A program made the position numbers and the translations under genes. A model generated the notes under the pieces. That model made no database searches. It had not been told where the DNA came from and saw only the letters and a program-made list of their open reading frames with translations. 34,349 nucleotides of DNA, from the NCBI GenBank assembly GCA_005790605.1, contig SXUI01000071.1, positions 1 through 34,349 on the forward strand, given 5' to 3'. The stretch is from Planctomycetia bacterium (GTDB lineage Bacteria; Planctomycetota; Phycisphaerae; Phycisphaerales; SM1A02). Of this stretch, positions 1,779 to 19,206 are shown one piece after another. Numbering within the stretch: position 1 is the first letter of the stretch; each line of letters starts with the position of its first letter.

Positions 1779-2284
1779 GCTTGCGCCTCCGGCGCGTCGG
1801 CACGGTAGGTTCCACTTCGCCCGCCGCGCTTTTCAAGCACGCGCACACCTTCGATGATCATGGATCGATCGACGGCCTTTCCCATGTCAATCACGGTCAG
1901 GCACGCGACCGTCACCGCCGTGAGTGCTTCCATTTCGACGCCAGTTCGTGTGTGGCAGTGCACCGAGGCCCGCACGCGCACTCGGCGCGCCTCGAGATCA
2001 ATCGCAATGTCGATGCCGTCAAGCGGAAGGGTGTGGCAGAGTGGAATCAGTTCGTCGGTTCGCTTGGCCGCAAGGACTCCTGCGACACGAGCAACTTCAA
2101 AGACAGATCCCTTCGCGAGGGAGTTTTCGCGAATGCGAGTTTCGAGCGCTTCGGAAATTCTCACGAAGCCCTCCGCTTGCGCGAAACGCTCCGTCACGGG
2201 CTTCGCCCCGACATCCACCATGCTCGCATCGCCAGCGCGATTGATATGGGAGAGCTCAGTGGGATGCTGTGGAGTACTTGACAT
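1775..2284 (-). CDS. moaC: Cyclic pyranopterin monophosphate synthase MoaC
   Basis: MoaC turns the MoaA product (3',8-cyclo-GTP) into cyclic pyranopterin monophosphate. The frame is open up to 2401, but I place the start at the ATG at 2284. It gives 169 residues, the usual size, beginning MSSTPQHPTELSHI and running into the family N-terminus SMVDVGAKPVTERFA. Conserved stretches are KGSVFEVARVAGVLAAKRT, PLCHTLPL (family PLCHPL), TGVEMEALTAV and IDMGKAVDRSM, the last holding the catalytic Asp-Lys pair, then RSGTY at the C-terminus. It lies 19 bp after moeA and shares an ATGA overlap with mogA. Confidence 0.93.
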   Translation of the reverse strand: MSSTPQHPTELSHINRAGDASMVDVGAKPVTERFAQAEGFVRISEALETRIRENSLAKGSVFEVARVAGVLAAKRTDELIPLCHTLPLDGIDIAIDLEARRVRVRASVHCHTRTGVEMEALTAVTVACLTVIDMGKAVDRSMIIEGVRVLEKRGGRSGTYRADAPEAQA

Positions 2285-2303
2285 AGGGTTTCTCTGAAAG
2301 CTG

Positions 2304-3644: not shown

Positions 3645-3659
3645 CGCTACAGTGCTTCC

Positions 3660-3905
3660 ATGAAAGTTGATGTACTCGTCTTTGGTCAAGCGCGAGAACG
3701 CGCAGGCGCGGACCGGGTTTCCGTTGAGGTGCCGGATGCGGCGTCGGTCGAGGAACTGCTCGTTGGTTTGCATACCCAGCATGACGCGCTCCGACCGCTC
3801 ATGACGGCCGCACGAATCGCCGTGAATGGCGCGTTCGTGCCGTCGAGACAAGTGGTCCGTGCACACGACGAACTCGCGCTCATTGCAATGGTAGGTGGCG
3901 GTTGA
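3660..3905 (+). CDS. moaD: Molybdopterin synthase sulfur-carrier subunit MoaD
   Basis: MoaD is the small ubiquitin-like sulfur carrier of molybdopterin synthase. The 81-residue product starts MKVDVLVFGQARERAGADRV, as in the family, and ends in MVGGG. The terminal Gly-Gly is adenylylated and converted to a thiocarboxylate by a MoeB-type enzyme, which is not encoded here. The start is the ATG at 3660; the frame is open further upstream, but that part is the shadow of moeA. The moaE TTG start overlaps its stop by 4 nt, which fits the 1:1 MoaD-MoaE complex. Confidence 0.92.
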   Translation: MKVDVLVFGQARERAGADRVSVEVPDAASVEELLVGLHTQHDALRPLMTAARIAVNGAFVPSRQVVRAHDELALIAMVGGG

Positions 3906-4357
3906 AAGTGATTGCGACGATCATCGACTGTCCCGTCACGCCCGAAATCGAGCGAGTGTTGCTCGCGTGTTCGGGCGCCTGCTCCGAGTGCGACTGTCGA
4001 GCGGGCGAAATTGGGTGCGCCATACGGTTCGATGGACTTGTGCGCAGGCTTGAGTCGACGGGCGAGATCGACCAACCGGAGGGGCGTGCGTTGCGACCTT
4101 TGGTTGGACTCGTGTACGAGGCGTACGAGCCAATGGCGAGCCGCGAGTTCGCGTCGCTCGCGCAATCGATCGCGAGAGAGTTCTCCCTCGCAGCCATCAG
4201 CGCGATCCATAGTCGAGGACTCGTGAAGGTCGGGGAAGTCAGTTTCGTCTTGATTGTCGAGGCTTCGCATCGTCGAGAGGGCATTGCCGCAGTGCAGGCG
4301 TTTATCGATCGATTGAAGTGTGATGTTCCGATCTGGAAAAATCCGGTTTGGGCGTGA
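3902..4357 (+). CDS. moaE: Molybdopterin synthase catalytic subunit MoaE, cysteine-rich N-terminus
   Basis: MoaE is the large subunit of molybdopterin synthase, which adds two sulfurs from MoaD to cyclic pyranopterin monophosphate. The 151-residue product has the family stretches LVYEAYEPMASREF, HSRGLVKVGEVSFVL, EASHRREGIAAVQ and FIDRLKCDVPIWKNP; the last contains the two catalytic lysines. Translation most likely starts at the TTG at 3902, which overlaps the moaD stop as TTGA. The N-terminal third is unusual: cysteines fall at residues 10, 23, 27, 30, 32 and 39 (CxxxCxxCxC then C), just before GCAIRFDGLVR, the counterpart of the family's 'GA.v.F.G.vR'. I know no such cluster in well-studied MoaE. 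Its stop converges on the TauE gene with 32 bp between. Confidence 0.88.
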   Translation: MKVIATIIDCPVTPEIERVLLACSGACSECDCRAGEIGCAIRFDGLVRRLESTGEIDQPEGRALRPLVGLVYEAYEPMASREFASLAQSIAREFSLAAISAIHSRGLVKVGEVSFVLIVEASHRREGIAAVQAFIDRLKCDVPIWKNPVWA

Positions 4358-4389
4358 CATTTGCGATGATGGATTGATGTGCATCATGG

Positions 4390-5139
4390 TCAACCAACCA
4401 GTGTCAGTTTCACGCCCGCAATCACGAGCACGCAGGCGAGGACGCCGCGGAGTGATGCGAAGTTGAGGCTTCGACTACCGATCGAAGCGCCGACGAGGCC
4501 GCCACAACCAGCAGCGACGACGAGCGGCGCAATGCCTTCCGGTATCTCCGCTCCATCGACGCACAATCCTGCGAGCCCTGCTGCAGAATTCACGAGAATG
4601 AAGCATGCGCTGCATGCCGCTGTCCGCTTCGGATCAGCCCACGCCAAGAGGAGCAGGACGGGGCTAAGAAGAATCCCGCCTCCGGTTCCCGTGAGACCAG
4701 AAAACAACCCGATCGCGGCTCCGATCGCAAGGCATGTGCGAACACTTGGCTGCACGGGTTGTTGAGCATCACGGAGTGTGCTGCGCGTTATCCACAGGAT
4801 GCGACCGGCGGCGCAGAGCAGTGCGATCCCAATCGCTCCTCGAAGCGCGGTGGCGGGCAGTTCGAGCGTGCCTCCAAGAAATGCGGCGGGCACCGATGTG
4901 GCGAGGAAGGGCCATGTAAGGCGCCATGAGAAGTGGCCTGCACGAGCAAACTGCACGAATGCGATAGTCGCGACGAGCACATTGATGGTGAGTGAGGTCG
5001 GACGCATCATTGCCGTGTTCACGCCCATCAGCGCCATGAGCGCGATGTATCCCGATGCTCCGGCGTGTCCGACGCTCGCGTACAGCGCGCCCACGAGGAC
5101 GAAGAGGAGTGCGAGGATGGAAATGGTTTCGTTCGGCAC
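4390..5139 (-). CDS. TauE/SafE-family membrane permease
   Basis: This predicted inner-membrane protein belongs to the TauE/SafE family, whose members are proposed to export sulfite, sulfonates or related anions. A GTG at 5139 gives 249 residues with about eight hydrophobic segments. The family repeats are visible as SVGHAGASGYIAL (residues 22-34) and GLTGTGGGILLSPVLLLL in the second half. The longer upstream frame overlaps moaA and looks like its shadow. The gene lies 13 bp after moaA, last in the nap-moa operon. TauE/SafE permeases next to Moco genes suggest handling of a sulfur anion or an oxyanion, but the substrate cannot be read from sequence. No strong Shine-Dalgarno precedes the GTG. 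Confidence 0.82.
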   Translation of the reverse strand: MPNETISILALLFVLVGALYASVGHAGASGYIALMALMGVNTAMMRPTSLTINVLVATIAFVQFARAGHFSWRLTWPFLATSVPAAFLGGTLELPATALRGAIGIALLCAAGRILWITRSTLRDAQQPVQPSVRTCLAIGAAIGLFSGLTGTGGGILLSPVLLLLAWADPKRTAACSACFILVNSAAGLAGLCVDGAEIPEGIAPLVVAAGCGGLVGASIGSRSLNFASLRGVLACVLVIAGVKLTLVG

Positions 5140-5152
5140 TGAGGTTCGTCTC

Positions 5153-6232
5153 TTACCCGCCGATGGCGGACATTCCGCGGCGAGGCTGAACAAAGTCTGT
5201 CCCAGAGATTCCGTGAGAGGATTGCTTATTCCAAGTCGCCTCGAGGAGTCGATCTGCGATCGATGCGTCGGACGCGTTCCATCGAAGCAGGTCGCGCACA
5301 TCCCACTCATCCGTACTGAACAAGCACGGGCGAAGCTTTCCATCTGCGGTCAGCCTCAGTCGACTACATGCGCCGCAGAATGGGCTGCTCACAGGTGCAA
5401 TGAATCCAATGCGTCCGGCTGCGCCGTCAGCGAAGGCAAACAGCGACGCCGTCGCAGACGGATCGCACGAGTCGAGTGCAAGCAGTGGATAGCTTGTCTC
5501 GATGTGTCGCCTCGTCTCAGCTGCAGACACGAACTTTGAAGCGTCCCACGCGTGCGCCGCGTCAAGCGGCATGTACTCGATGAATCGAACATCGATAGCG
5601 TAACGACGCGCGAGGTTGGCGAGTGCGAGCGTCTCACCATCATTGACGCCCCGAATGAGAACGGCGTTCACCTTTGTTTCCGAGAAGCCGAGCGAAATGC
5701 AGTCTTCAATCGCCGCAATCACGCGTTGTGGCGTCGTCGTCGATCGCGTGATGGTCGCAAACCGCTCCTCATCGAGCGCGTCAAGACTCATCGTCACGCG
5801 TGAGAGACCGGCCTCTTGCAACCTCGCGAGCGAGTCTCGTGTGAGCCGCGACCCATTCGTAATGAGCGCGATTTCAACAGTTGTCGCCTGTCGAATCTCT
5901 GCAATGATCTGCTCAAGTTGTGGATGCAGCGTTGGTTCGCCGCCCGTCAGCCTGATCTTTCGAATCCCGAGCGTTTCCGCGATGCGCGCCACGCGCACGA
6001 ACTCTCGGGGCGTGAGAAGTGTTGCAGTCTCCGCAAACTCGCAGTCCGTGCTCATGCAGTAGGTGCAACGAAAGTTACATCGGTCGGTGATGCTGATGCG
6101 GAGATCGCGGATCACGCGCCCGTGCGAATCGATGAGTCGGCGTTGCATCCCCCAAGGGCGAGACGACGCGCATGCGTGCGAAGTATCGGGTCGTTCGCGG
6201 GACAGTGTAGGAAGCGCGATCGTGCGGGTCAT
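5153..6232 (-). CDS. moaA: GTP 3',8-cyclase MoaA (radical SAM)
   Basis: MoaA is the radical-SAM enzyme that starts Moco synthesis by cyclising GTP. The ATG at 6232 gives 359 residues and overlaps the upstream decarboxylase stop as ATGA; a GGAGGG lies 10 nt upstream. The SAM [4Fe-4S] cluster ligands are C52, C56 and C59 (CNFRCTYC). LTGGEPTLHPQLEQII is the SAM-binding GGE region, and the GTP-binding second cluster is C286, C289 and C303 (FCGACSRLRLTADGKLRPC). The C-terminus ends GMSAIGG; the terminal Gly-Gly is needed for activity in known MoaA. After the SAM motif the usual 'CMP..G' reads CMSTDCEF, a minor deviation. It is separated from the other moa genes and sits within the nap operon. Confidence 0.95.
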   Translation of the reverse strand: MTRTIALPTLSRERPDTSHACASSRPWGMQRRLIDSHGRVIRDLRISITDRCNFRCTYCMSTDCEFAETATLLTPREFVRVARIAETLGIRKIRLTGGEPTLHPQLEQIIAEIRQATTVEIALITNGSRLTRDSLARLQEAGLSRVTMSLDALDEERFATITRSTTTPQRVIAAIEDCISLGFSETKVNAVLIRGVNDGETLALANLARRYAIDVRFIEYMPLDAAHAWDASKFVSAAETRRHIETSYPLLALDSCDPSATASLFAFADGAAGRIGFIAPVSSPFCGACSRLRLTADGKLRPCLFSTDEWDVRDLLRWNASDASIADRLLEATWNKQSSHGISGTDFVQPRRGMSAIGG

Positions 6233-8220
6233 GGAGTTGATGCCCTCCATGGCTGCGCGATCCAGAGATCGTCTGCCACAGCCGTGAGTTCGCTCGCGAG
6301 TTCGGAGATGTAGTAGCGGCCCTTCCGTTTCGCAGCCTCGTACCACGGATTCATGAGCACGGAACGCAGGACGAACACGCCCTCGCGCCGGTACTCCTCA
6401 TCGGACACGCCGAGCGACTCGAGGAACGCTCGAACACTGTCTGGCGCATAGCGGTGCGCTTTGAATTCCGTGCGGCTGACGAAGAAGGACTGGTTGTACA
6501 CGCGTTCGCCGGGGCGCAACGTGAATTGCGCGTGCACCGCCCGATTGAGCGCGTTGATTGACGCGAGTGAGGCGCCATGCTCCAGAGGTCGAAATGCAAA
6601 GCACACAATGTTGCTACTTGTGGCGCACGGAAATGCAGCGCGAACGACGCACGCTGACTTTCTTGCGGGGATGATTTTGAGGAGCGCGTGGAGTTCGCAC
6701 GCATTGCGAATCGTTTCTTTGAGTAGCCGTCCGTGACCGGCGTTGTCGAGCGGGATGAGTGTGTGGCTCAGCCACACCGCAGCGGCGGCTGCGCCCGGCT
6801 TACTGCCTTCGAGGATACTGACGCCGATCGAGTCAAGAAGGTCAGTTTGCGAACCATTCTCACATGGAGCGTCGAGATATGGAGCGTCCTGACGAGCCAG
6901 TAGTTTGACGGACGCGTGCTTGAAGCACACGGCGCCCGCTGGGTAGGGGATGTAGCCGAGTTTGTGCGGGTCCACGACGATGGAGTCGGCCTCGCTGATC
7001 TTCTCGAGGGCGCCGCACACGCTTCGGATTGGAAGTTCCAATGCAATCTGTTCTACGCGATGCTCTATCTGCACGCAGGTCGTTGAGTCGCCCAGACCCG
7101 TCCGATCTGGAATCGTGATAGAGCGAAGGTATCCCCCATACGCGGCATCGGCGTGCAACCAGAAGGAACTTGCGCCGCGAGACTCACGCGAAGTCCGAAG
7201 TGCCGCAATCTCGTCGATCGGATCGACGACGCCCTCCTCGGTTGTCCCCGCGATCGCGACGACGGCGATGACATGCTGCCCGGACTGTTCGAGTGCGTCG
7301 ATGTGTGCATCAAGCGCGTCGACGCGCATGCGCAGATCATGGTCAACTGGAATAGCGTGAAGTGCATTGCGACCAATGCCGAGAAGATCCGCCGCCTTGG
7401 AGAGAGAATAGTGATGCGTTTCTGGCGCAAGAATGACACCGCGCGAGCCTGTGCATCGCTCGATCGATGCAACGCCGTGGACGGCAATGTTGAACCGCGA
7501 GGTTCGAAGGTGTTCGAGGCACTCTTGTCGAGCGGGCGCGAACTCGAGCGCGGTCGCGAGCGCGCCGAGAATGTCCCGCGGCGCAAGTGATAGGAGTCGC
7601 GAGGAATCCGTGAGGCATGCGGCGCGGGGGAGGCGACTTGCATCGAACCACTCTGCGAGCGCGAATGGTAAGTACTTCACGCTTCGTGCAATCCAGAGCG
7701 CTTCGATGTTTGCGATCGTTCCGCCGCTCGTCAGGTGCGCCCAACTGCTGGCGTCATATCCGAGCATGCGCGCGATGAGCTGGGCCGCTTCGAGTTCCAA
7801 TCGAACGGTGACAGGAGCCGCGTCGGTCGAGACATTGTTCGGGTTGTAGAGCATCGCCGCGAAGTAGCCCGCAATGCTTGGAAGCGTTTGTTCCGAAAGC
7901 ATGTGCGCGGCGTATCGAGGGCTGTGAAACGGGAAATCTGATTTCAATCGCCCAAGCAGTTCCATCAAGCGATCTTGGAATTCGTCTTGAAACGCCTCCG
8001 CTCCTAGGCGAAGCGAACGGTCGACGACGGAACCGTCTTCTGGAAAATAGTTCCTCCGCCAAGAGTGATAGTCCTGGAGGATGCGATGTATCGACAAACT
8101 GAACCACTCGCCATTTTCTGCCTTTGGACCGGCAAACCACCCGCTCCACGCCACAGCATCCGTGCGCGGAGGGCGCGTCGGATCGGTCATGCGCGGGGCG
8201 AGTGTTGATCCGTCAGTCAT
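6229..8220 (-). CDS. PLP-dependent amino-acid decarboxylase, tyrosine-decarboxylase type
   Basis: A 663-residue group II PLP decarboxylase. PLP features are HADAAYGGYL (D358 binds the pyridine nitrogen), ETHHYSLSKAADLLGIG (H269/H270, ring stacking) and VDPHKLGYIPYPAGAV with Schiff-base Lys K420. The overall length and the stretches SPRYAAHMLSEQTLPSIAGYF, AAMLYNPNNVSTDAAP and GGTIANIEALWIAR match the large bacterial tyrosine decarboxylases (enterococcal TyrDC, about 620 residues) better than the 450-550 residue GadB or DDC types. The reaction would be amino acid to amine plus CO2; tyrosine is the best guess, but aspartate or glutamate are possible. The ATG at 8220 overlaps the CMD gene by 8 nt and the stop overlaps moaA by 4 nt. 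No antiporter gene, the usual partner in tyramine operons, is adjacent. Confidence 0.82.
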   Translation of the reverse strand: MTDGSTLAPRMTDPTRPPRTDAVAWSGWFAGPKAENGEWFSLSIHRILQDYHSWRRNYFPEDGSVVDRSLRLGAEAFQDEFQDRLMELLGRLKSDFPFHSPRYAAHMLSEQTLPSIAGYFAAMLYNPNNVSTDAAPVTVRLELEAAQLIARMLGYDASSWAHLTSGGTIANIEALWIARSVKYLPFALAEWFDASRLPRAACLTDSSRLLSLAPRDILGALATALEFAPARQECLEHLRTSRFNIAVHGVASIERCTGSRGVILAPETHHYSLSKAADLLGIGRNALHAIPVDHDLRMRVDALDAHIDALEQSGQHVIAVVAIAGTTEEGVVDPIDEIAALRTSRESRGASSFWLHADAAYGGYLRSITIPDRTGLGDSTTCVQIEHRVEQIALELPIRSVCGALEKISEADSIVVDPHKLGYIPYPAGAVCFKHASVKLLARQDAPYLDAPCENGSQTDLLDSIGVSILEGSKPGAAAAAVWLSHTLIPLDNAGHGRLLKETIRNACELHALLKIIPARKSACVVRAAFPCATSSNIVCFAFRPLEHGASLASINALNRAVHAQFTLRPGERVYNQSFFVSRTEFKAHRYAPDSVRAFLESLGVSDEEYRREGVFVLRSVLMNPWYEAAKRKGRYYISELASELTAVADDLWIAQPWRASTP

Positions 8221-8599
8221 GGCGTGAGAATTGCTCCTGAGCCCAACTCCAAGCAGAAACGGTGCGAGGAAAGCCGACCGTGTTCATGCCCAGCAGAATC
8301 GACTGCTCGACTTCCTCGGTGCTCGCGCCATGCTGAAGCGCGCGACGGACATGGCTGCGAAGCGCTGACTCGAGTCCAGCGCCAACACAGATCCCGATTT
8401 TGATCAGCGCGAGTGTTCTTGCGTCGAGCGGTCCAACGCTGTTGACGGACTGAGCGACACTCTCATGCGCGCGCCCAAGATCTGGATACTTCGCGATGAA
8501 CGCGCGAAATGTTGGCGGTGGAGCGGAGCTCGTCGTTGCGTCTTCGCGCAACTTCGAGGTTCGCTTGGTCGTTGCTTTCTGTGATGCAGTTCGCTTCAT
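8213..8599 (-). CDS. Carboxymuconolactone decarboxylase (CMD/AhpD-like) family protein lacking the CxxC
   Basis: A small all-helical protein of 128 residues with the CMD/AhpD core: LDARTLALIKIGICVGAGLESALRSHVRRALQHGAS, with no more than a few substitutions against family consensus. In redox-active members a CxxC precedes the conserved His; here those positions read L-E-S-A before LRSHV. A peroxidase-reductase role like AhpD is therefore unlikely, and the protein may be structural or act on a small ring substrate. I chose the ATG at 8599 (GAGAA lies upstream, and a Lys-rich start follows); a TTG at 8623 would overlap the napF-like gene. It lies 7 bp after that gene and overlaps the decarboxylase start by 8 nt. 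Confidence 0.75.
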   Translation of the reverse strand: MKRTASQKATTKRTSKLREDATTSSAPPPTFRAFIAKYPDLGRAHESVAQSVNSVGPLDARTLALIKIGICVGAGLESALRSHVRRALQHGASTEEVEQSILLGMNTVGFPRTVSAWSWAQEQFSRHD

Positions 8600-8606
8600 T
8601 GGTTTC

Positions 8607-9206
8607 TCATGCGGATCGAGCAAGGGTTGGGAGCAGCAGAACTCCGTTTTGAGGAGCGGGGCAAACGCTCAAGCAGACGCCACACCCCGTGCAGTGTTCG
8701 GCATGGATGGTCGGACGGCCCCGTTCAACCGTGATCGCGCCCTCGACCGGACATCGTTCACTACAGACCGTGCAGGTCGTGCGGGTGTGCGCGAGGCAAC
8801 TCTCGATTTGTATGCGCGCGGTCCCCATCCGTCGTGGGAGTTCCGCTCGAAGTACGCGTGGGATACAGACGGTGATGCAAGGGGCGTCCTTGCACATGAC
8901 GCACGGTTGCGTTGATGCATCGATGACTGGTGTTCCGGCAGCCTCCCGAAACCGAGTGCCCGCCCTCACAATCGCATGCACTGGACATGCTTCGACGCAT
9001 GCATCACAACGCGTGCATTCGCGGAGGAACGCGGCTTCTTCGACGGCGCCAGGTGGCCGATGGAGTACAGGCAGCGGCCGTGCTGACGAGGCCAATGAGC
9101 TCGTTCGGTCCGGTGAGACGGCATCCGCACCGCGACCGAATCGTCCTCGGAGCAAGTCGCGGCGTGAGATGTGAGGTTCACTAGACACGGGTAGCCATTT
9201 CCTCAC
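8607..9206 (-). CDS. napF: NapF-like polyferredoxin
   Basis: A 199-residue cytoplasmic-type ferredoxin. The N-terminus has SRRDLLRG, as in NapF, and is not followed by a hydrophobic segment, so it is not a working Tat signal. Four [4Fe-4S] cysteine sets follow: CTRCDACVEACP, CVMCKDAPCITVC, a set in CLAHTRTTCTVCSERCP and CTGCGVCLSVCP. NapF in enterobacteria interacts with NapA in the cytoplasm and is thought to help Fe-S loading or maturation. The GTG at 9206 overlaps the napB stop as GTGA, so the two are translationally coupled. NapG is less likely because a cleavable Tat signal is missing and no napH follows. Confidence 0.82.
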   Translation of the reverse strand: MRKWLPVSSEPHISRRDLLRGRFGRGADAVSPDRTSSLASSARPLPVLHRPPGAVEEAAFLRECTRCDACVEACPVHAIVRAGTRFREAAGTPVIDASTQPCVMCKDAPCITVCIPRVLRAELPRRMGTARIQIESCLAHTRTTCTVCSERCPVEGAITVERGRPTIHAEHCTGCGVCLSVCPAPQNGVLLLPTLARSA

Positions 9207-10003
9207 CGAGGTGTGGTTGGAACGGAGCCGTCGGCAACATCTGCGAGATCAAATCCAGGTGCTAGTTGCTCCAACTCCGCTGTAGGAGCGTGGCATTGTG
9301 CGCAGTTGGTTCGTGGAAGGTGATCCGGGCGCCACCCCTCATACCCAAAGTCGCCGTGGCAACTCACGCAATTCGTCCGCATGAAGATGGTGTGAGGAAT
9401 GCAAGGAGGTGCGCCTGCGCTCGCGCGACTTCCGCCGCACCCACTCGAGCGGAGACCGACGAATGTGTTGTGGGTGGATGCTTGATCGTGCGGTGATCGA
9501 GCGAACTCAAGTCCAATCTGTTCAACATGGCACTGTGTGCAATTCGTCAGTTCCGTGTGCGGCATCATGCGCGCGACCTGCGTGCCAGCGGTCAATCCGG
9601 TCGCATGGCAGGCACGGCAGGTCTGCACATGCAGGCCTGATGTTGGGTGAGGAATGACAGGCGGTGCACCTTCGAATGCACGAATCTCCGCTCTTTTCTC
9701 GATGGAAACTGCGCGAGCGAGAAACTTGTCGGTGGTCGTCGCGGGCAGGTTCCGATTTGCTGCAATCGTGATTGGAGCGGGGCTGTTGAGTCGCCACGCG
9801 ACCTCCGAGCTCTTCCCGGCATGGAGATCCGTTTCTGTCGTTCGTGGAGTCGAAGGCGACGGCGTGGCGGGGAGCGGTATGCCGCCGACGACGACCTGCG
9901 AAGTGGAGGCGAGTCCGGGCGCAAGCGTCGTGAGTGTGAGGGCTGTGAGCCCGAATGCGACCGACACCTGCATGCGATTGAGTCGTCGAAATGCGGTGAG
10001 CAT
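9203..10003 (-). CDS. napB: Nitrate reductase cytochrome subunit NapB, tetraheme with internal duplication
   Basis: NapB is the periplasmic cytochrome c that passes electrons to NapA. This version has 266 residues against about 150 in Escherichia coli, and four CxxCH haem sites instead of two: residues 129-133, 155-159, 212-216 and 234-238. The protein is a tandem repeat. The first unit reads AFEGAPPVIPHP then CRACH and NCTQCHVEQ; the second reads GAPPCIPHT then CVSCH and NCAQCHAPT. Both carry the NapB-type 'APPxIPH' before the first haem of the pair. A hydrophobic export signal spans residues 12-34. The start is the ATG at 10003, with AAAGGA 5 nt upstream, 9 bp after the napA stop. Confidence 0.88.
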   Translation of the reverse strand: MLTAFRRLNRMQVSVAFGLTALTLTTLAPGLASTSQVVVGGIPLPATPSPSTPRTTETDLHAGKSSEVAWRLNSPAPITIAANRNLPATTTDKFLARAVSIEKRAEIRAFEGAPPVIPHPTSGLHVQTCRACHATGLTAGTQVARMMPHTELTNCTQCHVEQIGLEFARSPHDQASTHNTFVGLRSSGCGGSRASAGAPPCIPHTIFMRTNCVSCHGDFGYEGWRPDHLPRTNCAQCHAPTAELEQLAPGFDLADVADGSVPTTPR

Positions 10004-10012
10004 GGTGTTCCT

Positions 10013-12430
10013 TTAGCCCTTCCGTGTGAGTTGGACCGCGCACTTCTTGTAGTCAGGCTGCTTCGAATACGGGTCATATGCATCGAGCGTCACGAGATTG
10101 ATGAGGACTTGTTCATCAAAGAACGGAACGAACACCTCGCCTTGTTTTGGGTTCCCGCGTCCGCCAATCCACGCGGGAAGATCGACGGCTCCTCGGCGAC
10201 TTCGGACTGTGATGATGTCTCCGCTTCGCACGCCCATCGTTTGTGCATCATCTCGATGCATCTCGACATACGCCTTTGGCATCGCTCGATGGAGCGGTGG
10301 GATTCGGCGAGTCATCGTCCCGCTGTGCCAGTGTTCAAGGACGCGTCCTGTGCAGAGCCAGAACGGGAATTCCGCGTCTGGCATCTCCGGCGGGTGTTCA
10401 TGCGGCCGAAACCAAATGAGCGCTTTGTCGTCCCTACTGACGGAGTGGTAGAACTGAAAATCACGGCCTTTTTCGACGAACGGGTCATCGAATCCGCTAA
10501 ACCGCCAACGCGTTTCACGCCACGAGCCATCGGGCTGTTCGACGACCGGCCATCGAAGCCCGCGCGCCTTCACATACTCCGCGTATGGAGCGAGGTTCTT
10601 GTGCTTGTGTGTGCTAAAGAGTCGGTACTCGTTGAAGAGTCGCTCATCGACATTGCGATCGTAGTAGTGCGCCCACTCCCAGACCGGGATCTCCTTTCCC
10701 TCTACGTCGGTCGTCTTGAAGATCCACACTCCATCCTTGTCGCGTTGCGATGTTGGATCGAGTTCAGCGAGTCGCTTAGAGACTGCGATCGTTTGCCAGC
10801 AATCATCTCGCGCCGCGCCTGGTGGTTCGACCATCTTGAACCACTGGTGCGTGCGGCGCTCGCTGTTGCCATACATGCCGTTTTTTTCAACCCACATCGC
10901 GCTCGGGAGGATGAGATCAGCAAGCTCGGTTGTCGCGGTTGGATACACATCGGAGACGATGAGAAACTTGTCCGCGAGCTTTGACTTTTCACGAAAGTTC
11001 CTTGTGAGGTTCGGCATCGTGTGGCCAGGATTGGTCACCTGCACCCAAATGGTCGTGACATCGCCGCCCTGATCCGTGGGCGTGTTGAATCGCTTAAACA
11101 GTTCCACCGCGTGGTAGCCAGGTTTGTCACTGATGCGACCCTGCGCAAGATTCCAATGCTCTTCCGCATGGGCTCGATGCTGTGGATTTGCGATGGCGAG
11201 TCCCCCGGGGAGGAGGTGGCAGAGCGTACCAACCTCGCGCGCGGTACCGCACGCAGACGGCTGTCCGGTCAGGCTTGTCGCAGCCTCGCCTGGTTTGCCA
11301 AAATGCCCTGAAAGTAAGTGAATTCCGTGCACGAGGCAGTTGATGGCCGTGCCCCGTGTGTGCTGGTTCATCCCCATGCACCAGAAGCTGTTGATCTTGA
11401 TGTCCTTGCGGGCGAAGAGTGCGCCGAGCATGCGAATGTGATCGGCGCTGACTCCCGAGAGCTTCTCGACAACCTCGGGCGTGTAGTCCTTCACTGCTTC
11501 GCGATACGCATCCATCGTCATGGGCACGCCGAGCATCTCCGGTGGACTCTTTTCGTCCTTTGGTGGGCCGAGCGTACGAAAGTTGCAGTGCTTCTCGACG
11601 AATGCGTGGTCGAACGCATTGTCCTTCATCAGCAGATGCGCAATGCCATTTGCAATCGCGAGGTCTCCATGCGGTTTGAAGAGCAGCACATGATCGGCAA
11701 GGTCGCTCGTGCGAGTTCGACGCGTGGTCATGTCAATGATTGTCACCTTCTCGCCGCGCGTTCGTCGATCGACGAGCCGGGAGAAGAGGACGGGGTGCAT
11801 CTCCGCCATATTGTTTCCCCACATAATGGCAACATCACACTTGTCGATGTCGTCGTAGACGCCGGGTGGTTCGTCGACGCCAAAGGTTGAAAGGAAACCA
11901 GTCACCGCCGATGCCATGCAGAGGCGAGGATTCGCGTCGATTTGGTTGTTCCCCATCCCGGCCTTCACAAATTTGTTGGCCGCGTACCCCTCGGGAATCG
12001 TCCACTGGCCAGATCCATAGAACGAAAAACCTGCTGGATTCCCGAGGATTCGCTTGGAAATCACATCAATCGCTTCATCCCATGTGATCGGTTTGAGTAC
12101 ACCGTTGGTGCGCAGCATCGGTGTCGTGAGGCGATCTTTCCCATAGAGCGCGAGTCCAACATGGTACCCCTTGACACACAAGAGGCCCTTGTTTACCTCG
12201 GCCTTTTGGTCACCCTGAATCGCGACCACGCGACCGTTCTCAGTTCCGACCATCACATGGCATCCTGTCCCGCAGAATCGACATGGAGCCTTTTCCCATC
12301 GGAGTCCGCTACCGCTCTGAGGCTCTTCCAAGATCGGGAGCGCCCATGTGCGAGCAGAACCAGCCGCCGCCGCCGTTGCAGCGGCGATGGCTGTTGACTT
12401 GACGAATGCACGGCGTTCAACGCTAAGCAT
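10013..12430 (-). CDS. napA: Periplasmic nitrate reductase catalytic subunit NapA
   Basis: NapA reduces nitrate to nitrite in the periplasm using a bis-MGD molybdenum cofactor and one [4Fe-4S] cluster. From the ATG at 12430 the product has 805 residues (family about 780-830). A Tat signal is at the N-terminus (ERRAFVKSTAIAAATAA). The cluster ligands are C50, C53, C57 and C85 (CRFCGTGC, then KGLLCVKG). The molybdenum-ligating cysteine is C171 in ANPRLCMASAVTGF, the NapA signature. Further family stretches are MWGNNMAEMHPVLFSR, MGMNQHTRGTAIN and WLCTGRVLEHWHSGTMTRR. The start is decided by AGGAG 6 nt upstream; the frame continues to 12562 but that part is napD in another frame. All ligands are intact. 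Confidence 0.97.
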   Translation of the reverse strand: MLSVERRAFVKSTAIAAATAAAAGSARTWALPILEEPQSGSGLRWEKAPCRFCGTGCHVMVGTENGRVVAIQGDQKAEVNKGLLCVKGYHVGLALYGKDRLTTPMLRTNGVLKPITWDEAIDVISKRILGNPAGFSFYGSGQWTIPEGYAANKFVKAGMGNNQIDANPRLCMASAVTGFLSTFGVDEPPGVYDDIDKCDVAIMWGNNMAEMHPVLFSRLVDRRTRGEKVTIIDMTTRRTRTSDLADHVLLFKPHGDLAIANGIAHLLMKDNAFDHAFVEKHCNFRTLGPPKDEKSPPEMLGVPMTMDAYREAVKDYTPEVVEKLSGVSADHIRMLGALFARKDIKINSFWCMGMNQHTRGTAINCLVHGIHLLSGHFGKPGEAATSLTGQPSACGTAREVGTLCHLLPGGLAIANPQHRAHAEEHWNLAQGRISDKPGYHAVELFKRFNTPTDQGGDVTTIWVQVTNPGHTMPNLTRNFREKSKLADKFLIVSDVYPTATTELADLILPSAMWVEKNGMYGNSERRTHQWFKMVEPPGAARDDCWQTIAVSKRLAELDPTSQRDKDGVWIFKTTDVEGKEIPVWEWAHYYDRNVDERLFNEYRLFSTHKHKNLAPYAEYVKARGLRWPVVEQPDGSWRETRWRFSGFDDPFVEKGRDFQFYHSVSRDDKALIWFRPHEHPPEMPDAEFPFWLCTGRVLEHWHSGTMTRRIPPLHRAMPKAYVEMHRDDAQTMGVRSGDIITVRSRRGAVDLPAWIGGRGNPKQGEVFVPFFDEQVLINLVTLDAYDPYSKQPDYKKCAVQLTRKG

Positions 12431-12731
12431 GAGATTCTCCTGAGCAGGTTGTGTCGCAGGCGCCCTGTGCGAGACAGGGTGAGGCGGCGATGTGTTGAAG
12501 GTTGTCGAGGTGCACGAATGCGAGCTCGACTTGGAGCACGCCTTCAATCGAGTGAAGTTCATCCCAAAGCGCTCGGTCTTCTCGAGGTGAGCCGGTCTCG
12601 GTGAGGATCGCGAGCCGGTGGCCGAACCGCTCGCCGACTTCGACGCGCGAGTCTGACGCGAGCGTGATCAACGCGCCTTGCGCGGCTGATGCATCCGCTT
12701 CGAGTGTGAGTACCAATCCACTGATCGCCAT
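12423..12731 (-). CDS. napD: NapD, NapA signal-peptide-binding chaperone
   Basis: NapD binds the NapA Tat signal and holds back export until the cofactor is loaded. The 102-residue protein shows the family pattern: ISGLVLTLEADASA at the start, VEVGERFGHRLAILTETGS in the middle and LWDELHSIEGVLQVELAFVHLD in the second half. The C-terminal tail has three cysteines (CLAQGACDTTC), which is not typical. It is the first gene of the nap operon and its stop overlaps the napA start by 8 nt. No clear ribosome binding site precedes the ATG at 12731. Confidence 0.9.
   Translation of the reverse strand: MAISGLVLTLEADASAAQGALITLASDSRVEVGERFGHRLAILTETGSPREDRALWDELHSIEGVLQVELAFVHLDNLQHIAASPCLAQGACDTTCSGESHA
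12437..12441 (-). promoter_or_regulatory. Shine-Dalgarno of napA
   Basis: On the minus strand AGGAG lies 6 nt before the ATG at 12430. It falls inside the end of napD, fixes the napA start and rules out the longer frame. Confidence 0.8.
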
Positions 12732-12750
12732 TGCAATTCGATTCTGTTTT

Positions 12751-12782
12751 GGAGGGGATGGGGCTGGAGGAGGGAGGGTGGG
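12751..12782 (+). promoter_or_regulatory. G-rich tract with G-quadruplex potential between the two nap-associated operons
   Basis: The plus strand has five G runs of three or more: 12754-12757, 12760-12763, 12772-12774, 12776-12778 and 12780-12782. The last three are separated by single bases, and the loop to the previous run is 8 nt. It lies 20-50 bp upstream of the napD start, on the non-coding strand for the plus operon. The composition is unlike the rest of the gap. A regulatory role is inference. Confidence 0.4.
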
Positions 12783-12800
12783 TGTGATTTTTTGGTGGAA

Positions 12801-12820
12801 ATTCGGCTATGGGATCGAAT
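12801..12820. promoter_or_regulatory. Inverted repeat ATTCG-N10-CGAAT in the nap divergent region
   Basis: A perfect 5-bp inverted repeat with 10-bp spacing lies midway between napD and the tetraheme cytochrome gene, the position expected for a shared regulator. It does not match FNR/NnrR boxes (TTGAT-N4-ATCAA) or NarL heptamers. The arms are short, so chance is possible. Confidence 0.25.
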
Positions 12821-12828
12821 AAGAGGGC

Positions 12829-12856
12829 TTCGACATCGAGATACAGATAAGATACT
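12829..12856 (+). promoter_or_regulatory. Possible sigma-70-like promoter for the cytochrome/Fe-S/NrfD operon
   Basis: TTCGAC (12829-12834) and GATACT (12851-12856) are spaced by 16 bp, ending 31 bp before the ATG at 12888. Both boxes match the consensus only partly. Confidence 0.3.
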
Positions 12857-12887
12857 CCGGATATCGACAAAAGTCAGGTCGCATCTC

Positions 12888-13640
12888 ATGAACCGATCAC
12901 AATTCGACCCTTCGCTCAAGAAAAGTCGCGTCCTCAATGCCGGAACGATGCTCGGGCTCGCGCTGCCGTTGGGGTTCGGCGCACTCTGCTTTGCCTTCCT
13001 GATGGCGCCATCTCGCGTCTCCATCCCGCTCGCCGCGCGAAGTCGCGTTCCCGCTGAGGCGATCGCGAATCGGCCGCGGCGTGTCGCACTCGCGGATCCG
13101 CCGCACATCGCCGTGGACGGCGTGGACCAGAACTGCAATGCGTGTCATCAGATCTTTGCTTCCGCGAGTCCCGCGCACACCGCGCTTGAGTTTCACAACA
13201 CCGTTGTGCTCGCGCATGGAATGAATGACCGGTGCGTGAACTGCCACGATCCAACGGATCGAGAGCGATTGGTGCTCCGCGATGAGAGCACGATTCCATT
13301 CGCTGAGACGCCACGCCTGTGTTCACAATGTCATGGCACTGTGTATCGCGACTGGCAGCGCGGGACGCACGGGAAGACGCTTGGATCTTGGATCACTTCC
13401 TCCCCGCAGCAGCGCCGCCTTGGGTGCAACGAATGCCACGACCCTCATGCACCGAAGTACACACCTTATGTCCCACTTCCGAGTCCGCACACACTCCGCA
13501 TGGGTGAGCAGGGTGGAGTGCACGAGATTGATGCGGCCAAAGTCAGCCCACTGCAGCGGCATCTTCAAGAGGCGCGCAGGTTGTCGGCTGCATCGAGAAA
13601 AAAGGCAGCGCATCAGCAGTCCGAAGGAGTGCATCCATGA
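12888..13640 (+). CDS. Membrane-anchored tetraheme cytochrome c
   Basis: The product has 250 residues from the ATG at 12888. One uncleaved-looking transmembrane anchor spans about residues 16-40, followed by a periplasmic domain with four CxxCH sites: 83-87 (CNACH), 116-120 (CVNCH), 145-149 (CSQCH) and 180-184 (CNECH). Other histidines suited to haem ligation include H97, H103, H110 and H161. The LCSQCHGTVYRDWQRGTHGK and CNECHDPHAPKY stretches resemble cytochromes encoded next to Fe-S/NrfD pairs, and are not like NapC/NirT. The likely role is electron transfer between the NrfD module and periplasmic acceptors such as NapB. It heads a four-gene operon whose junctions are all ATGA overlaps. Confidence 0.83.
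   Translation: MNRSQFDPSLKKSRVLNAGTMLGLALPLGFGALCFAFLMAPSRVSIPLAARSRVPAEAIANRPRRVALADPPHIAVDGVDQNCNACHQIFASASPAHTALEFHNTVVLAHGMNDRCVNCHDPTDRERLVLRDESTIPFAETPRLCSQCHGTVYRDWQRGTHGKTLGSWITSSPQQRRLGCNECHDPHAPKYTPYVPLPSPHTLRMGEQGGVHEIDAAKVSPLQRHLQEARRLSAASRKKAAHQQSEGVHP
13624..13629 (+). promoter_or_regulatory. Strong Shine-Dalgarno of the Fe-S subunit gene
   Basis: AAGGAG sits 7 nt before the ATG at 13637, within the end of the cytochrome gene. It supports that start, which overlaps the preceding stop. Confidence 0.75.
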
Positions 13641-14761
13641 AAGATGTTCGCATTTGGGACGGTCCATCCGCGGCGACAGACGAGGCTCAAACGGCGTCGA
13701 ACCCAACGCGTCGAAGTTTTCTGCGTATCGGCGCTGCCGCGGTCGGTGGGATGGCTGCACTCGCCGCAGCGCTCAGCCCTTTACGCGAACTCGATCCAGA
13801 GGACCTGCCTGATGTCGAAGAGTTCCTTCAAAAACACTACAAGGAGATGACTGCGGTCGAGATGGAGGCCGCGCTCGCGCGGATCCGCGCCAATGTCGCC
13901 GACCGATTTGGAGTTGAACCAACGATTCGCGACCCCAAACCACTTGATGGTGTGGAGTTTGTCTACGCGCTCAATCTCTCGCGCTGCATCGGGTGTCGGA
14001 AGTGTGTACACGCATGCGTTGCCGAGAACAATCAATCGAGAAGCCCAGAGATTCAGTACATCCGTGTGATCGAAATGCCTCGCGGGACGCTCGATGTCGA
14101 GAAGGGTGATCATCACTACGATCGACCGCAGGTTCCTGATACCGCGCATTTCTATATGCCGGTCCAGTGTCATCAGTGCGCGAATCCGCCGTGTGTGAAG
14201 GTCTGCCCGGTCGAAGCGACTTGGCAGGAACCAGATGGGATCACCGTGATCGACTACGACTGGTGTATTGGATGCCGCTACTGCGAAGCTGCATGTCCAT
14301 ATTGGGCGCGTCGATTCAACTTCGCGCAACCATCGCTGCCGGCCGATGAGTTGAATCCAGACATGAGTTACCTCTCGAACCGCCCTCGCGAGCGTGGTGT
14401 GATGGAGAAGTGTCACTTCTGTCTGCACCGGACCCGTGAGGGTCGGATGCCAGCCTGCCTTGAGGCATGTCCGACCGGCGCGCGCAAGTTCGGGAATGTG
14501 CTCGATTCGAAGTCAGAAGTCTCAGAGATCCTCAAGACAAAGCGTGTCTTCGTGCTGAAGGAGGAAGTCGGGACGCTTCCGCGGTTCTTCTACTACTTCG
14601 ATGAGCGATACCCGAACACGATCGATCCTGAGGCGCTCGTGATTGCGGAGCAGTTACGCGAGGAGGAGGGCGATGCGTTTGGCGCGATGGACGTTGGTGC
14701 CGCTGGGCGGCTCGTGATCGCGCGGGCTTCTGGCATGAGTACTGAGGAGACTTGCGCATGA
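13637..14761 (+). CDS. Tat-exported four-cluster Fe-S subunit (DsrO/HybA/NrfC-like)
   Basis: A 374-residue periplasmic Fe-S protein. The twin-arginine signal is TRRSFLRIGAAAVGG (R25, R26) with a hydrophobic stretch to about residue 47. Four [4Fe-4S] sets are visible: C117/C120/C123/C127; C178/C181/C186/C190; C210/C213/C216/C220; and C259/C262/C274/C278. An insert of about 50 residues between the first two sets, and the ending ACLEACPTGARKFGN and GTLPRFFYYFDERYP, resemble DsrO/HybA-type subunits that dock on NrfD-like membrane proteins. It probably relays electrons between the quinol site in the next gene product and the tetraheme cytochrome. Both ends overlap neighbours by 4 nt (ATGA). Confidence 0.88.
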   Translation: MKDVRIWDGPSAATDEAQTASNPTRRSFLRIGAAAVGGMAALAAALSPLRELDPEDLPDVEEFLQKHYKEMTAVEMEAALARIRANVADRFGVEPTIRDPKPLDGVEFVYALNLSRCIGCRKCVHACVAENNQSRSPEIQYIRVIEMPRGTLDVEKGDHHYDRPQVPDTAHFYMPVQCHQCANPPCVKVCPVEATWQEPDGITVIDYDWCIGCRYCEAACPYWARRFNFAQPSLPADELNPDMSYLSNRPRERGVMEKCHFCLHRTREGRMPACLEACPTGARKFGNVLDSKSEVSEILKTKRVFVLKEEVGTLPRFFYYFDERYPNTIDPEALVIAEQLREEEGDAFGAMDVGAAGRLVIARASGMSTEETCA

Positions 14762-15990
14762 AGATGTATCTCAAATTCCTTTCGCGTTGCTTCCGTCTCA
14801 GCTTTGTTGGTGATGCGCGCTATTACGCGTGGATGTTTGGGCTGACGATCGTCGTGCTTGTCGGCATCAATGCGTACTGCAAGCAGTTCGTCCAAGGGCT
14901 CGCCACGACCGGCATGACCGATCAAGTCTCGTGGGGCTTTTACATCGCGAACTTCACTTTCCTTGTCGGCATGGCTGCTGCAGCGGTGATGCTTGTGATT
15001 CCGGTGTACATCTATCGCAACCGTGAACTCCACGACCTTGTGATCTTTGGTGAGTTGTTCGCCATCGCGGCCATCGTCATGGCGATGCTCTTTGTGACGG
15101 TTGATCTTGGGCGCCCAGATCGAGGCATGCACCTCCTGATGCGATTCAATTTCCCGAGTTCGATGCTGACTTGGGATGTGCTCGTCCTGAATGGCTATCT
15201 CTTTCTCAATCTTCACATTTGTGGTTACCTCATTTACTGCGCCTATCGAAAACAGCGCCCGAGCGCGCTCTTCTATGTGCCGTTCGTCTTCATCGCGATC
15301 GCGTGGGCGATCAGCATTCACACGGTGACTGCATTTCTGTACAGCGGCCTCGGTGGACGGCCATTTTGGAACTCCGCGATCATCGCACCGCGATTCCTTG
15401 CGAGCGCATTTGCTGCAGGTCCTGCGTTTCTCATCCTGACGCTCTCTGTGCTGAAGGCTTGTACGAGCTATCAAGTGCCAGAGAAGGCACTCATGACGCT
15501 TCGCAGCATCGTGACCATTGCGCTTGCGATCAGCATGTTCCTCCTTATCTCCGAGGCGTTCACCGAGTTCTATACGCAGAGTGCGCACGGCGCCTCGGCA
15601 CACTACCTCTACCTCGGATTGCACGGCCGCACTGCGCTCGTCCCTTGGATCTGGTCCGCCATCGCACTCAATACAGTCGCGCTCGCGATTCTGTTCACTG
15701 GTTGGAGTCGCAAGCCGGTTGTGTTGCACACAGCGTGCATTATGCTCATCGTTGGGATCTGGATCGAGAAGGGGATGGGGCTCATCGTTCCAGCGTTCGT
15801 TCCGACACCGCTCGGAGAGATCGTTGAATATGTGCCAACCCTGAATGAGTTGTTCGTGACCCTCGGCATTTGGGCATTCGGCTTGTTGGTCTACACCATT
15901 CTCGTTCGCGTGACAGTCCCAGTTTTGGCTGGGCGTCTCACGCATGATCAGCGGTTCCGCCAGACATTGGAAGCGGAGTATGCAGCATGA
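14758..15990 (+). CDS. NrfD/DsrP-like integral membrane quinol oxidoreductase subunit
   Basis: A 410-residue protein with about ten transmembrane helices. Family stretches include VSWGFYIANFTFLVGMAAAA (residues 58-77), FVTVDLGRPDRG (112-123), SMLTWDVLVLNGYL and WIEKGMGLIVPAFVPTPLGE. NrfD-like proteins bind menaquinol without haem and hand electrons to a periplasmic Fe-S partner, here encoded just before. The WGFYIANFTFLVG pattern is closer to DsrP/Hmc-type than to PsrC-type members. ATG at 14758 overlaps the previous stop and GGAG lies about 10 nt upstream; a TTG at 14752 is less likely. The direction of electron flow cannot be read from sequence. Confidence 0.88.
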   Translation: MKMYLKFLSRCFRLSFVGDARYYAWMFGLTIVVLVGINAYCKQFVQGLATTGMTDQVSWGFYIANFTFLVGMAAAAVMLVIPVYIYRNRELHDLVIFGELFAIAAIVMAMLFVTVDLGRPDRGMHLLMRFNFPSSMLTWDVLVLNGYLFLNLHICGYLIYCAYRKQRPSALFYVPFVFIAIAWAISIHTVTAFLYSGLGGRPFWNSAIIAPRFLASAFAAGPAFLILTLSVLKACTSYQVPEKALMTLRSIVTIALAISMFLLISEAFTEFYTQSAHGASAHYLYLGLHGRTALVPWIWSAIALNTVALAILFTGWSRKPVVLHTACIMLIVGIWIEKGMGLIVPAFVPTPLGEIVEYVPTLNELFVTLGIWAFGLLVYTILVRVTVPVLAGRLTHDQRFRQTLEAEYAA

Positions 15991-16445
15991 AAACTTCCGT
16001 CGCCGACACTCGCTGCGCGATCGATGGCGTCGCTGCCTTGCATGACCACATCGTGACGAAAGCGCGAGCGGCGAGAGCGTCGTTCGCAGATCCAACGAGC
16101 AGCGATTGGATGGGACGATTCCTCTCCGATCGGACCATCGTGCGCTACCCGCTCGGCGTGCGGTACGACGCGCAGCCACTGCGGTGCGGCGAGTTCGCAT
16201 GCCTTGAGTCTCTCGGCGAAACGCCCTCTGACGGATTCGTGCTGTTCGTGCATCCGATGCTCGAAGGCCGCATGGCGCAGCTCCCACTTGTGGTCGCGTA
16301 CTTCGTGCCGAGTGTCAACTATGGCGCGGTGGCTTCTCGAGAAGAGGCCGAGCTTTTCGGAGCGACGCTCTTTGCGATGCCGCAGGACGCGTATTACGCC
16401 GGGCTCCGCGCGATCGCCGACGAGGTGCGGTGCAGGACCAGTTAG
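15987..16445 (+). CDS. Unrecognised 152-residue protein encoded last in the NrfD-module operon
   Basis: I do not recognise this family. The product is soluble-looking: no signal peptide and no transmembrane segment long enough to be convincing, although GFVLFVHPMLEGRMAQLPLVVAYF (about residues 83-106) is a hydrophobic core. The C-terminal half, with VNYGAVASREEAELFGATLF, is the most motif-like part. Six-plus acidic residues in SREEAELFG and a mixed helix/strand pattern suggest a compact globular fold. The ATG at 15987 overlaps the NrfD stop (ATGA), so it is made with the complex and could be an assembly factor, chaperone or small subunit. Its TAG overlaps the convergent purT stop by 3 nt. Confidence 0.7.
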   Translation: MKTSVADTRCAIDGVAALHDHIVTKARAARASFADPTSSDWMGRFLSDRTIVRYPLGVRYDAQPLRCGEFACLESLGETPSDGFVLFVHPMLEGRMAQLPLVVAYFVPSVNYGAVASREEAELFGATLFAMPQDAYYAGLRAIADEVRCRTS

Positions 16446-19072: not shown

Positions 19073-19137
19073 GCATGCACTCCAGATTGGCAGGACGGCG
19101 TCTTGCCCTCCATAGGGAAAGACTGATAAGAATATCC

Positions 19138-19143
19138 ATAATA
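19138..19143 (-). promoter_or_regulatory. Possible -10 box upstream of tpl
   Basis: TATTAT on the minus strand, in the most AT-rich part of the 134-bp tna-tpl gap, lies 66 bp before the tpl start. No convincing -35 box is found at the right spacing. It suggests tpl may have its own promoter. Confidence 0.3.
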
Positions 19144-19206
19144 CCACGCATTCCCTTCAAAAAGCGTGCGTTCTTGCGTCGAACCTCGGACATGACGCGG
19201 TGGGTG

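Follow-up and report, generated by a model that had tools for sequence, protein, structure and literature searches.

The closest described counterparts of the locus considered here are clusters in which an NrfD-family membrane protein, an Fe/S protein and multihaem cytochromes are encoded near a periplasmic nitrate reductase (Nap). In T. dismutans, TDIS_0606-0609 lie beside napMADGH and comprise an HaoA-like multihaem cytochrome, an NrfD-family protein, an Fe/S protein and a transmembrane cytochrome c, a putative cluster proposed to act in nitrite reduction or to be coupled to nitrate reduction (PMC5276818, PMC4911364). Putative NrfD clusters by Nap have also been described in the Planctomycetota metagenome-assembled genomes (MAGs) OFTM8 and OFTM33 (Suarez et al. 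2023, PMC10732223), and in E. coli NrfBCD is the quinol dehydrogenase for NrfA, NrfD oxidizing quinol while a four-cluster Fe/S protein and a multihaem cytochrome pass electrons to the periplasmic reductase (PMC12285233). Here, we analyze a 34,349-nucleotide stretch of a Planctomycetia bacterium (the window; positions 1 to 34,349 of contig SXUI01000071.1, our C62, assembly GCA_005790605.1; genome 3.03 Mb, 80 contigs, 99% complete), in which a nap operon diverges from a run of four genes encoding a membrane-anchored tetrahaem cytochrome (J), an Fe/S protein (O), an NrfD-family protein (P) and a small conserved protein (orf152). The labels J, O and P, together with N-type, chimera and octahaem-linked module below, were coined in this analysis. 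We consider it probable that J-O-P is a membrane quinol dehydrogenase that feeds Nap, and that in this lineage it has been replaced in place by a homologue of the octahaem-linked kind.

The T. dismutans cluster, compared by description and not by sequence, differs in that NapGH is present, NapB is absent and an octahaem-type gene is kept, whereas the window has no NapH above cut-off, a duplicated NapB, no octahaem gene and, in addition, orf152. The clusters of Suarez et al. by their wording would keep actD, and the available portion of that text neither names them as a Nap quinol dehydrogenase nor treats their spread or exchange; locus L246, on a contig of OFTM33, has a divergent napFBAD / J-O-P arrangement of the N-type layout and is probably the OFTM33 cluster of that study. 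Relative to E. coli NrfBCD, the target here would be NapAB, and J is anchored and carries four haems, whereas the E. coli cytochrome is soluble and carries five. NapC and NapGH share the proposed role and the place beside nap but belong to different protein families. DsrJOP has the same cytochrome-Fe/S-NrfD gene order, and P passes the DsrP cut-off; O, however, reaches only 178.8 bits against the NCBIfam DsrO cut-off of 200, J has four haem motifs against three in DsrJ, and the neighbors in the window are nitrogen genes.

Membership in DsrMKJOP was rejected, with DsrO below its cut-off (though DsrP is passed) and no match to DsrK or DsrA in the genome at E<=1e-3, a search for which there is no true positive control (none of 14 control genomes passes either cut-off). 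An earlier, sequence-only reading of this DNA had likened the module to DsrJOP, but the nearest kin prove to be modules beside an HAO-family octahaem cytochrome. We found no literature description of J-O-P as a Nap quinol dehydrogenase, or of its exchange, in a full-text search that covered few subscription journals and was read as listings and passages, and the term Nap does not occur in the portion consulted of a review of NrfD proteins (PMC8076601). Clusters of similar kind are already published as putative; the present locus is a variant with a swapped module.

Two module lineages in one place

Six loci (the window, L152, L172, L173, L176 and L177) combine the divergent nap layout of N-type loci with J-O-P-orf152 and no octahaem gene, and we refer to them as chimeras. 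In a NapA tree (70 rows of at least 550 aa, simpler model), the six form one clade (support 100) inside a nine-row set shared with N-type L154, L157 and L249 (99). The NrfD tree was built from 135 rows out of 161 loci with an NrfD of at least 330 aa (all 129 at >=50% identity and 6 of the 32 below), with rows overlapping between collections (identical pairs L158/L239, L156/L189 and L129/L180). Here, 40 rows of N-type modules form a clade with support 99; 35 of them lie beside nap, and 5 have no nap in view. Most of the remaining rows (88, support 94) are modules of the octahaem-linked kind or relatives of these, frequently accompanied by orf152. The chimeras lie outside the N-type clade, within a 53-row clade (98) of which 40 rows are octahaem-linked; five of them group with L174, whose contig is too short to show nap (99), and L177 stands slightly apart.

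A more careful NrfD tree of 56 of the 135 rows (capped per group, omitting rows marked "none" except two outgroup rows, and omitting L166, L229, L239, L235, L189 and L180) recovers the 19 N-type rows as one clade (100/100). Forcing chimeras and N-type into a single clade is 57 log units worse and is rejected by the approximately unbiased (AU) test (p 0.013), the group having been named after the tree was seen. Trees of O and J (57 rows each, capped per group, with "none" rows, L166, L239, L235, L189 and L180 left out) agree, each with N-type as one clade (98) and the chimeras outside. The chimeras thus resemble octahaem-linked modules in the placement of J, O and P and in possession of orf152, and depart from them in lacking the octahaem gene between P and orf152. 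By these trees, the octahaem-linked module, minus its octahaem gene, stands as a replacement where near relatives have the N-type module.

The occupation of one position beside nap by two different module lineages points to a function for that position. In relatives, the window's kind of module usually sits with a different multihaem enzyme, which suggests that such modules are swappable between respiratory enzymes. As a natural experiment, in-place exchange of this kind suggests that the module itself is of importance to Nap. No octahaem cytochrome matches in the window genome (G000) or in the second chimeric survey genome (G337), while four positive-control genomes match at E<=1e-239. About 38 kb from its chimeric locus, G337 also carries a module of N-type (L153), accompanied by a NapB-like gene but with no NapA in view; in the L172 assembly ("new MAG-51"), a further contig (L175) bears a module of the octahaem-linked kind. 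In L160, the octahaem protein passes the Pfam Multi-haem_cyto cut-off; its best NCBIfam model is hydrazine dehydrogenase, at 73.1 bits far short of the cut-off of 900. The HAO-family octahaem cytochrome is probably a nitrite reductase.

Related modules occur in other surroundings. At L083, L092, L098, L101, L107, L112, L179 and L195, octahaem-linked modules lie beside a molybdoenzyme that is 37-39% identical to NapA and forms its own clade (100). At L210, L211 and L219 (Opitutae/Verrucomicrobia), J-O-P-orf152 is preceded by a small one-haem cytochrome and has neither an octahaem gene after P nor nap in view, and the arrangement is similar in most of L208-L225; L211 and L219 further encode, close by, a heptahaem cytochrome and a large family-less protein (perhaps a porin), as if for extracellular electron transfer.

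Occurrence beside napA and alternative electron donors

Among 392 Planctomycetota genomes, 104 have some NapA match at E<=1e-60 and 52 a NapA of at least 44% identity; NapC and NapH were sought in these 52. In 33 of the 52, napA has next to it the module, or as much of the module as lies on the contig; in 28 of these genomes J-O-P is complete within view. Twenty-nine are divergent with no octahaem gene in view (both chimeras included), one is co-directional (G025) and three form a single run with an octahaem gene (G057, G040 and G079). The divergent layout therefore recurs in 28 survey genomes besides that of the window (the contig ending inside the module in four, G236, G254, G264 and G164), which is more than chance. 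A cytochrome b and an octahaem cytochrome occupy the module's place in 11 of the 52, both arrangements together are found in none, and a contig end cuts the locus in four (G391, G383, G090 and G269). The sequence-only reading had asked whether the module is conserved beside napA, and it is; its suggestion that the chain may be unusual fares less well, module-beside-napA being the commonest layout in the survey.

Named records, of which the loci discussed are the best 80 of at least 510 confirmed and so do not give frequencies, place nap with the module outside Planctomycetota as well: in records labeled Myxococcales (L245, L248, L251), Deltaproteobacteria (L204, L244), Proteobacteria (L241) and Verrucomicrobiota groups (L232, L233, L237, L243, L250). 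The order is J-O-P-NapA-NapB-NapF on one strand in L241 and L248, and NapA-NapB-J-O-P, also on one strand, in L166 (G025 of the Planctomycetota survey). L239, on a complete chromosome ("Planctomycetes bacterium syqfu"), has an N-type locus. A second nap layout, cytochrome b-octahaem-NapA-NapB without J-O-P, is seen in Planctomycetota L145, L146, L147, L252-L255, L257, L258, L260 and L261; Rieske/cytochrome b genes beside nap in Caldithrix abyssi reflect a similar idea (PMC5317091).

Many Nap systems, though not all, have NapC or NapGH; in the window genome, neither was found above cut-off. A NapC elsewhere in the genome was considered and rejected: the sole NapC/NirT-family match is a 157-aa NrfH (153.6 bits, above the NrfH cut-off of 134.2) that adjoins NrfA, on a contig other than that of nap. 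No protein in the genome exceeds the NapH cut-off of 213.05; of three sub-threshold matches, all on other contigs (best 59.2 bits), one belongs to the CtaG family, and for the other two the weak NapH match stands alone, save for a TPR match in one of them. This agrees with the absence of NapC/NapGH that had been read from the window alone. Across the survey, NapH is above cut-off in none of the 52 genomes, and 13 of the 33 genomes with the module have no PF03264 (NapC/NrfH-family) match at E<=1e-3; four of the 13 (G009, G152, G319 and G365) have no NapH match either, G152 being a single contig and 99% complete. How NapC is replaced in nitrate respirers with NrfH is, according to a 2025 review, "less understood", and the authors suppose that a different product of the nap operon takes its role (PMC12285233); J-O-P is a concrete, conserved candidate for this replacement, and is present also in genomes without a NapC/NrfH-family or NapH-like match.

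The window genome does encode other quinol oxidizers. Alternative complex III (ACIII), with a second NrfD match and ActD, lies on contig C71, and C19 carries a bc-type cytochrome b that has a cytochrome c domain. In one alternative reading, J-O-P-orf152 would be the remnant of a system built around an octahaem nitrite reductase and would now deliver electrons to NrfA or some other cytochrome, sitting beside nap only through shared nitrate ammonification, with Nap supplied by ACIII or a cytochrome bc-type complex via a soluble cytochrome. An octahaem HAO-family gene does follow in most relatives of this module type, NrfHA comes directly after the module in L249, and in Campylobacter jejuni Nap respiration is, by the title of one study, coupled to Qcr (PMC6195509). 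We nevertheless think this explanation unlikely: NrfA here has its own adjoining NrfH, 30 survey genomes (both chimeras included) combine nap with an adjacent module and show no octahaem gene (the whole module in view in 26), and module and nap can share a one-strand run. The module does not qualify as an NrfABCD system, with NrfD at 18.7 of 347.6 bits, NrfC at 104.7 of 377.6 and NrfA on another contig.

We assign a still lower probability to the module being a general periplasmic electron hub for several acceptors (nitrate via NapB, nitrite via NrfA, perhaps metal oxides), in the manner of CymA in Shewanella. Homologous modules beside octahaem cytochromes, beside nap and, in Opitutae L211 and L219, near the heptahaem cytochrome and family-less protein would fit such a hub, as would a similar cluster by a porin-cytochrome complex (Suarez et al., PMC10732223); the module clades, however, largely track the neighboring genes (as in the N-type clade of the careful tree), suggesting dedicated partners.

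Several further points weigh against J-O-P as the donor to Nap or against its exchange. ACIII, the bc-type cytochrome b or NrfH could in principle reduce NapB instead, and the window's module lineage, which sits mostly with an octahaem cytochrome, may have another role here. L166 (G025), which has nap and the module, falls outside both NrfD groups on a long branch and was omitted from the careful, O and J trees. Four of the 52 survey genomes (G081, G123, G003 and G007) have neither the module nor the cytochrome b/octahaem pair. Sub-threshold NapH-like proteins accompany nap and the module in G271 and G279, and two more (97.4 and 93.9 bits) lie about 6-8 kb from napA in G079. Many of the surveyed genomes are fragmented MAGs, in which an absence carries less weight.

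On balance, we favor J-O-P as the quinol dehydrogenase of Nap. In the proposed mechanism, P would oxidize quinol, O would relay electrons via its four [4Fe-4S] clusters, and membrane-anchored J would pass them to the tetrahaem NapB and on to NapA, where nitrate is reduced; nitrite would go to ammonium by the NrfHA encoded elsewhere. In the ancestry of the window, the nap-associated module of the nearest relatives would have been replaced in place by a homologue that elsewhere precedes an HAO-family octahaem cytochrome, the octahaem gene being lost and orf152 kept. That quinol is oxidized, the path of the electrons, proton translocation of any kind and the sequence of events are what we infer. 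The sequence-only reading had proposed that the NrfD module, in place of NapC/NapGH, hands electrons to NapB, a proposal that we consider likely: the lack in the genome of a NapC, and of a NapH above cut-off, and the conservation beside napA support it, while transfer to NapB itself is still a deduction. Its reservation that the module might serve another acceptor is justified in part, the nearest kin lying beside an HAO-family octahaem cytochrome.

Ion movement by NrfD subunits has been proposed for the family (PMC8076601); if this is true, Nap respiration in carriers of the module could conserve energy at the quinol step. A wider view, which we offer tentatively and hold to be somewhat less probable than its opposite, is that J-O-P represents a plug-in, possibly ion-translocating quinol dehydrogenase family, re-wired between nap, octahaem nitrite reductases and porin-cytochrome conduits by whole-block exchange, making Nap respiration energy-conserving at the quinol step in Planctomycetota and Myxococcota, unlike NapC-driven Nap.

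Nap and module proteins

By full-length homology, NapA is a genuine periplasmic nitrate reductase: residues 86-846 match the E. coli NapA structure 2nya (E 4.4e-212), and the NCBIfam NapA score of 896.8 bits lies slightly below the cut-off of 904. Its start was set at 12430 and not at the longer open frame from 12562. Homologues of napD occupy the same place in relatives (e.g., L152, L154 and L158).

Canonical NapB carries two haems. The window's protein passes Pfam NapB (33.9 bits, cut-off 25.1) yet has four CxxCH motifs, a variant that the sequence-only reading had missed. Its halves share the repeat unit RA...APP.IPH..CxxCH..H..C.QCH and align at 42% identity (hhalign probability 99.4), a score reached by none of 2000 haem-keeping shuffles; as judged from these alignments, it is a tandem duplication of a two-haem unit. 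An AlphaFold2 model is poor (mean pLDDT 43.6), so the duplication rests on sequence, and comparison with PDB sequences gave no useful match. Four CxxCH are present in 36 of 37 NapB-matching open frames at the surveyed loci, the remaining one (two CxxCH) running into a contig end. We found no description of a four-haem duplicated NapB in the literature, as judged by titles and abstract openings.

NapF is cytoplasmic. The napF-like product has NapG as its best NCBIfam model (103.7 bits, cut-off 269), followed by MauM/NapG and NapF (69.5, cut-off 102.2), and bears a twin-arginine motif with no hydrophobic stretch after it by eye or in a hydropathy scan that also misses the signal of NapA. Homologues adjoin napB in relatives, and "NapF-like" is a fair label for the gene, not a proven one.

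The motifs and hydrophobic segments of J, O and P agree with the tetrahaem cytochrome, twin-arginine four-cluster Fe-S protein and ten-helix NrfD protein first read from the sequence. J has four further invariant histidines (alignment of 51 sequences), which are possible second haem ligands; its AlphaFold2 model (mean pLDDT 82.2) finds no PDB fold match at E<=0.001. The J of L170 (G048; about 6582-7202) has a weak NapC/NirT-family match of 21.6 bits (29.7 with in-frame neighbors; cut-off 24.1), perhaps from distant J-NapC kinship or perhaps from shared haem motifs only. Three cysteine sets of O were recognized by pattern and the fourth by eye.

P exceeds the Pfam NrfD (PF03916) cut-off of 25.8, its ten hydrophobic segments falling in the range of NrfD-type membrane subunits (8-10 helices). 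Residues Y62, D116, S135, D140 and K338 are invariant, with a spacing that matches the DsrP1 quinone-site and gate residues listed in PMC8076601 (positions compared, not aligned with DsrP1). P also passes the NCBIfam DsrP model (416.7 bits, cut-off 350), as do N-type L154 and L248 and octahaem-linked L160, and the model is therefore not specific. These nitrogen-linked NrfD proteins (window 14758-15990, L154:8083-9270, L160:9049-10317 and L248:8001-9188; 412.9-430.7 bits) would be named "DsrP" of sulfate reduction in annotation by this curated equivalog model.

orf152 has no match among Pfam or NCBIfam families, and the related proteins of L160 and L219 have none in Pfam. In other loci, its homologues follow the octahaem gene, napB or, immediately, P. 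The family accompanies the octahaem-linked module also at loci that lack the octahaem gene; it is perhaps an assembly factor.

Locus layout and neighboring genes

Gene coordinates and family matches confirm the gene content, strands and 156-bp divergent gap of the sequence-only reading, as well as its ATGA overlaps at the three rightward junctions (J/O, O/P and P/orf152). It had extended these overlaps to every junction, whereas leftward napB/napF-like is GTGA, napA and napB are 9 bp apart, and napD and napA overlap by 8 bases.

Features of the nap and J-O-P-orf152 locus (window positions)
Feature	Coordinates	Strand	Evidence
molybdenum-cofactor genes (MoCF_biosynth protein, moaC, moeA, moaE, moaA)	1209..6346		Pfam; context, outside module
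AhpD/carboxymuconolactone-decarboxylase-like, next gene in nap direction	8213..8623	-	Pfam CMD 45.7 bits
napF-like ferredoxin, NapF/NapG family	8607..9206	-	NCBIfam NapG and NapF, both below cut-off
napB-like tetrahaem cytochrome, two tandem NapB units of two haems	9203..10003	-	4 CxxCH; Pfam NapB
napA, catalytic subunit, periplasmic nitrate reductase	10013..12430	-	2nya match; NCBIfam NapA
napD (NapA chaperone)	12423..12731	-	Pfam NapD 20.4 bits, E 5.4e-4, below cut-off 28; precedes napA
divergent intergenic region common to both operons, 156 bp	12732..12887		gene coordinates
J, membrane-anchored tetrahaem cytochrome c	12888..13640	+	4 CxxCH, one N-terminal hydrophobic helix
O, Fe/S protein, twin-arginine motif, four [4Fe-4S]-type cysteine sets	13637..14761	+	Pfam Fer4_11 68.9 bits
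P, NrfD-family membrane protein, ten helices, likely quinol-binding (predicted)	14758..15990	+	Pfam NrfD 131.2 bits
orf152, conserved protein, mark of octahaem-linked module	15987..16445	+	homologues in relatives

The intergenic region contains no FNR-like palindrome; the window as a whole has 8 with at most two mismatches against 11.6 expected. No sigma-70-like promoter was found in 12600-13000. Among the named records (best 80 of at least 510 loci), the most similar NrfD proteins are those of L172-L174 and L177, labeled Phycisphaerae, Phycisphaerales or Phycisphaeraceae (Planctomycetota), so that the organism itself is probably a member of the Phycisphaerae.

Near the compared loci, homologues of the AhpD-like gene occur in L155 and L157 only. 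The molybdenum-cofactor genes lie beyond nap in the nap direction, with a pyridoxal-dependent tyrosine-decarboxylase-like gene (6229-8220) between the two, and at 17693-20634, the window encodes two adjacent beta-eliminating lyases in tandem (Pfam Beta_elim_lyase).

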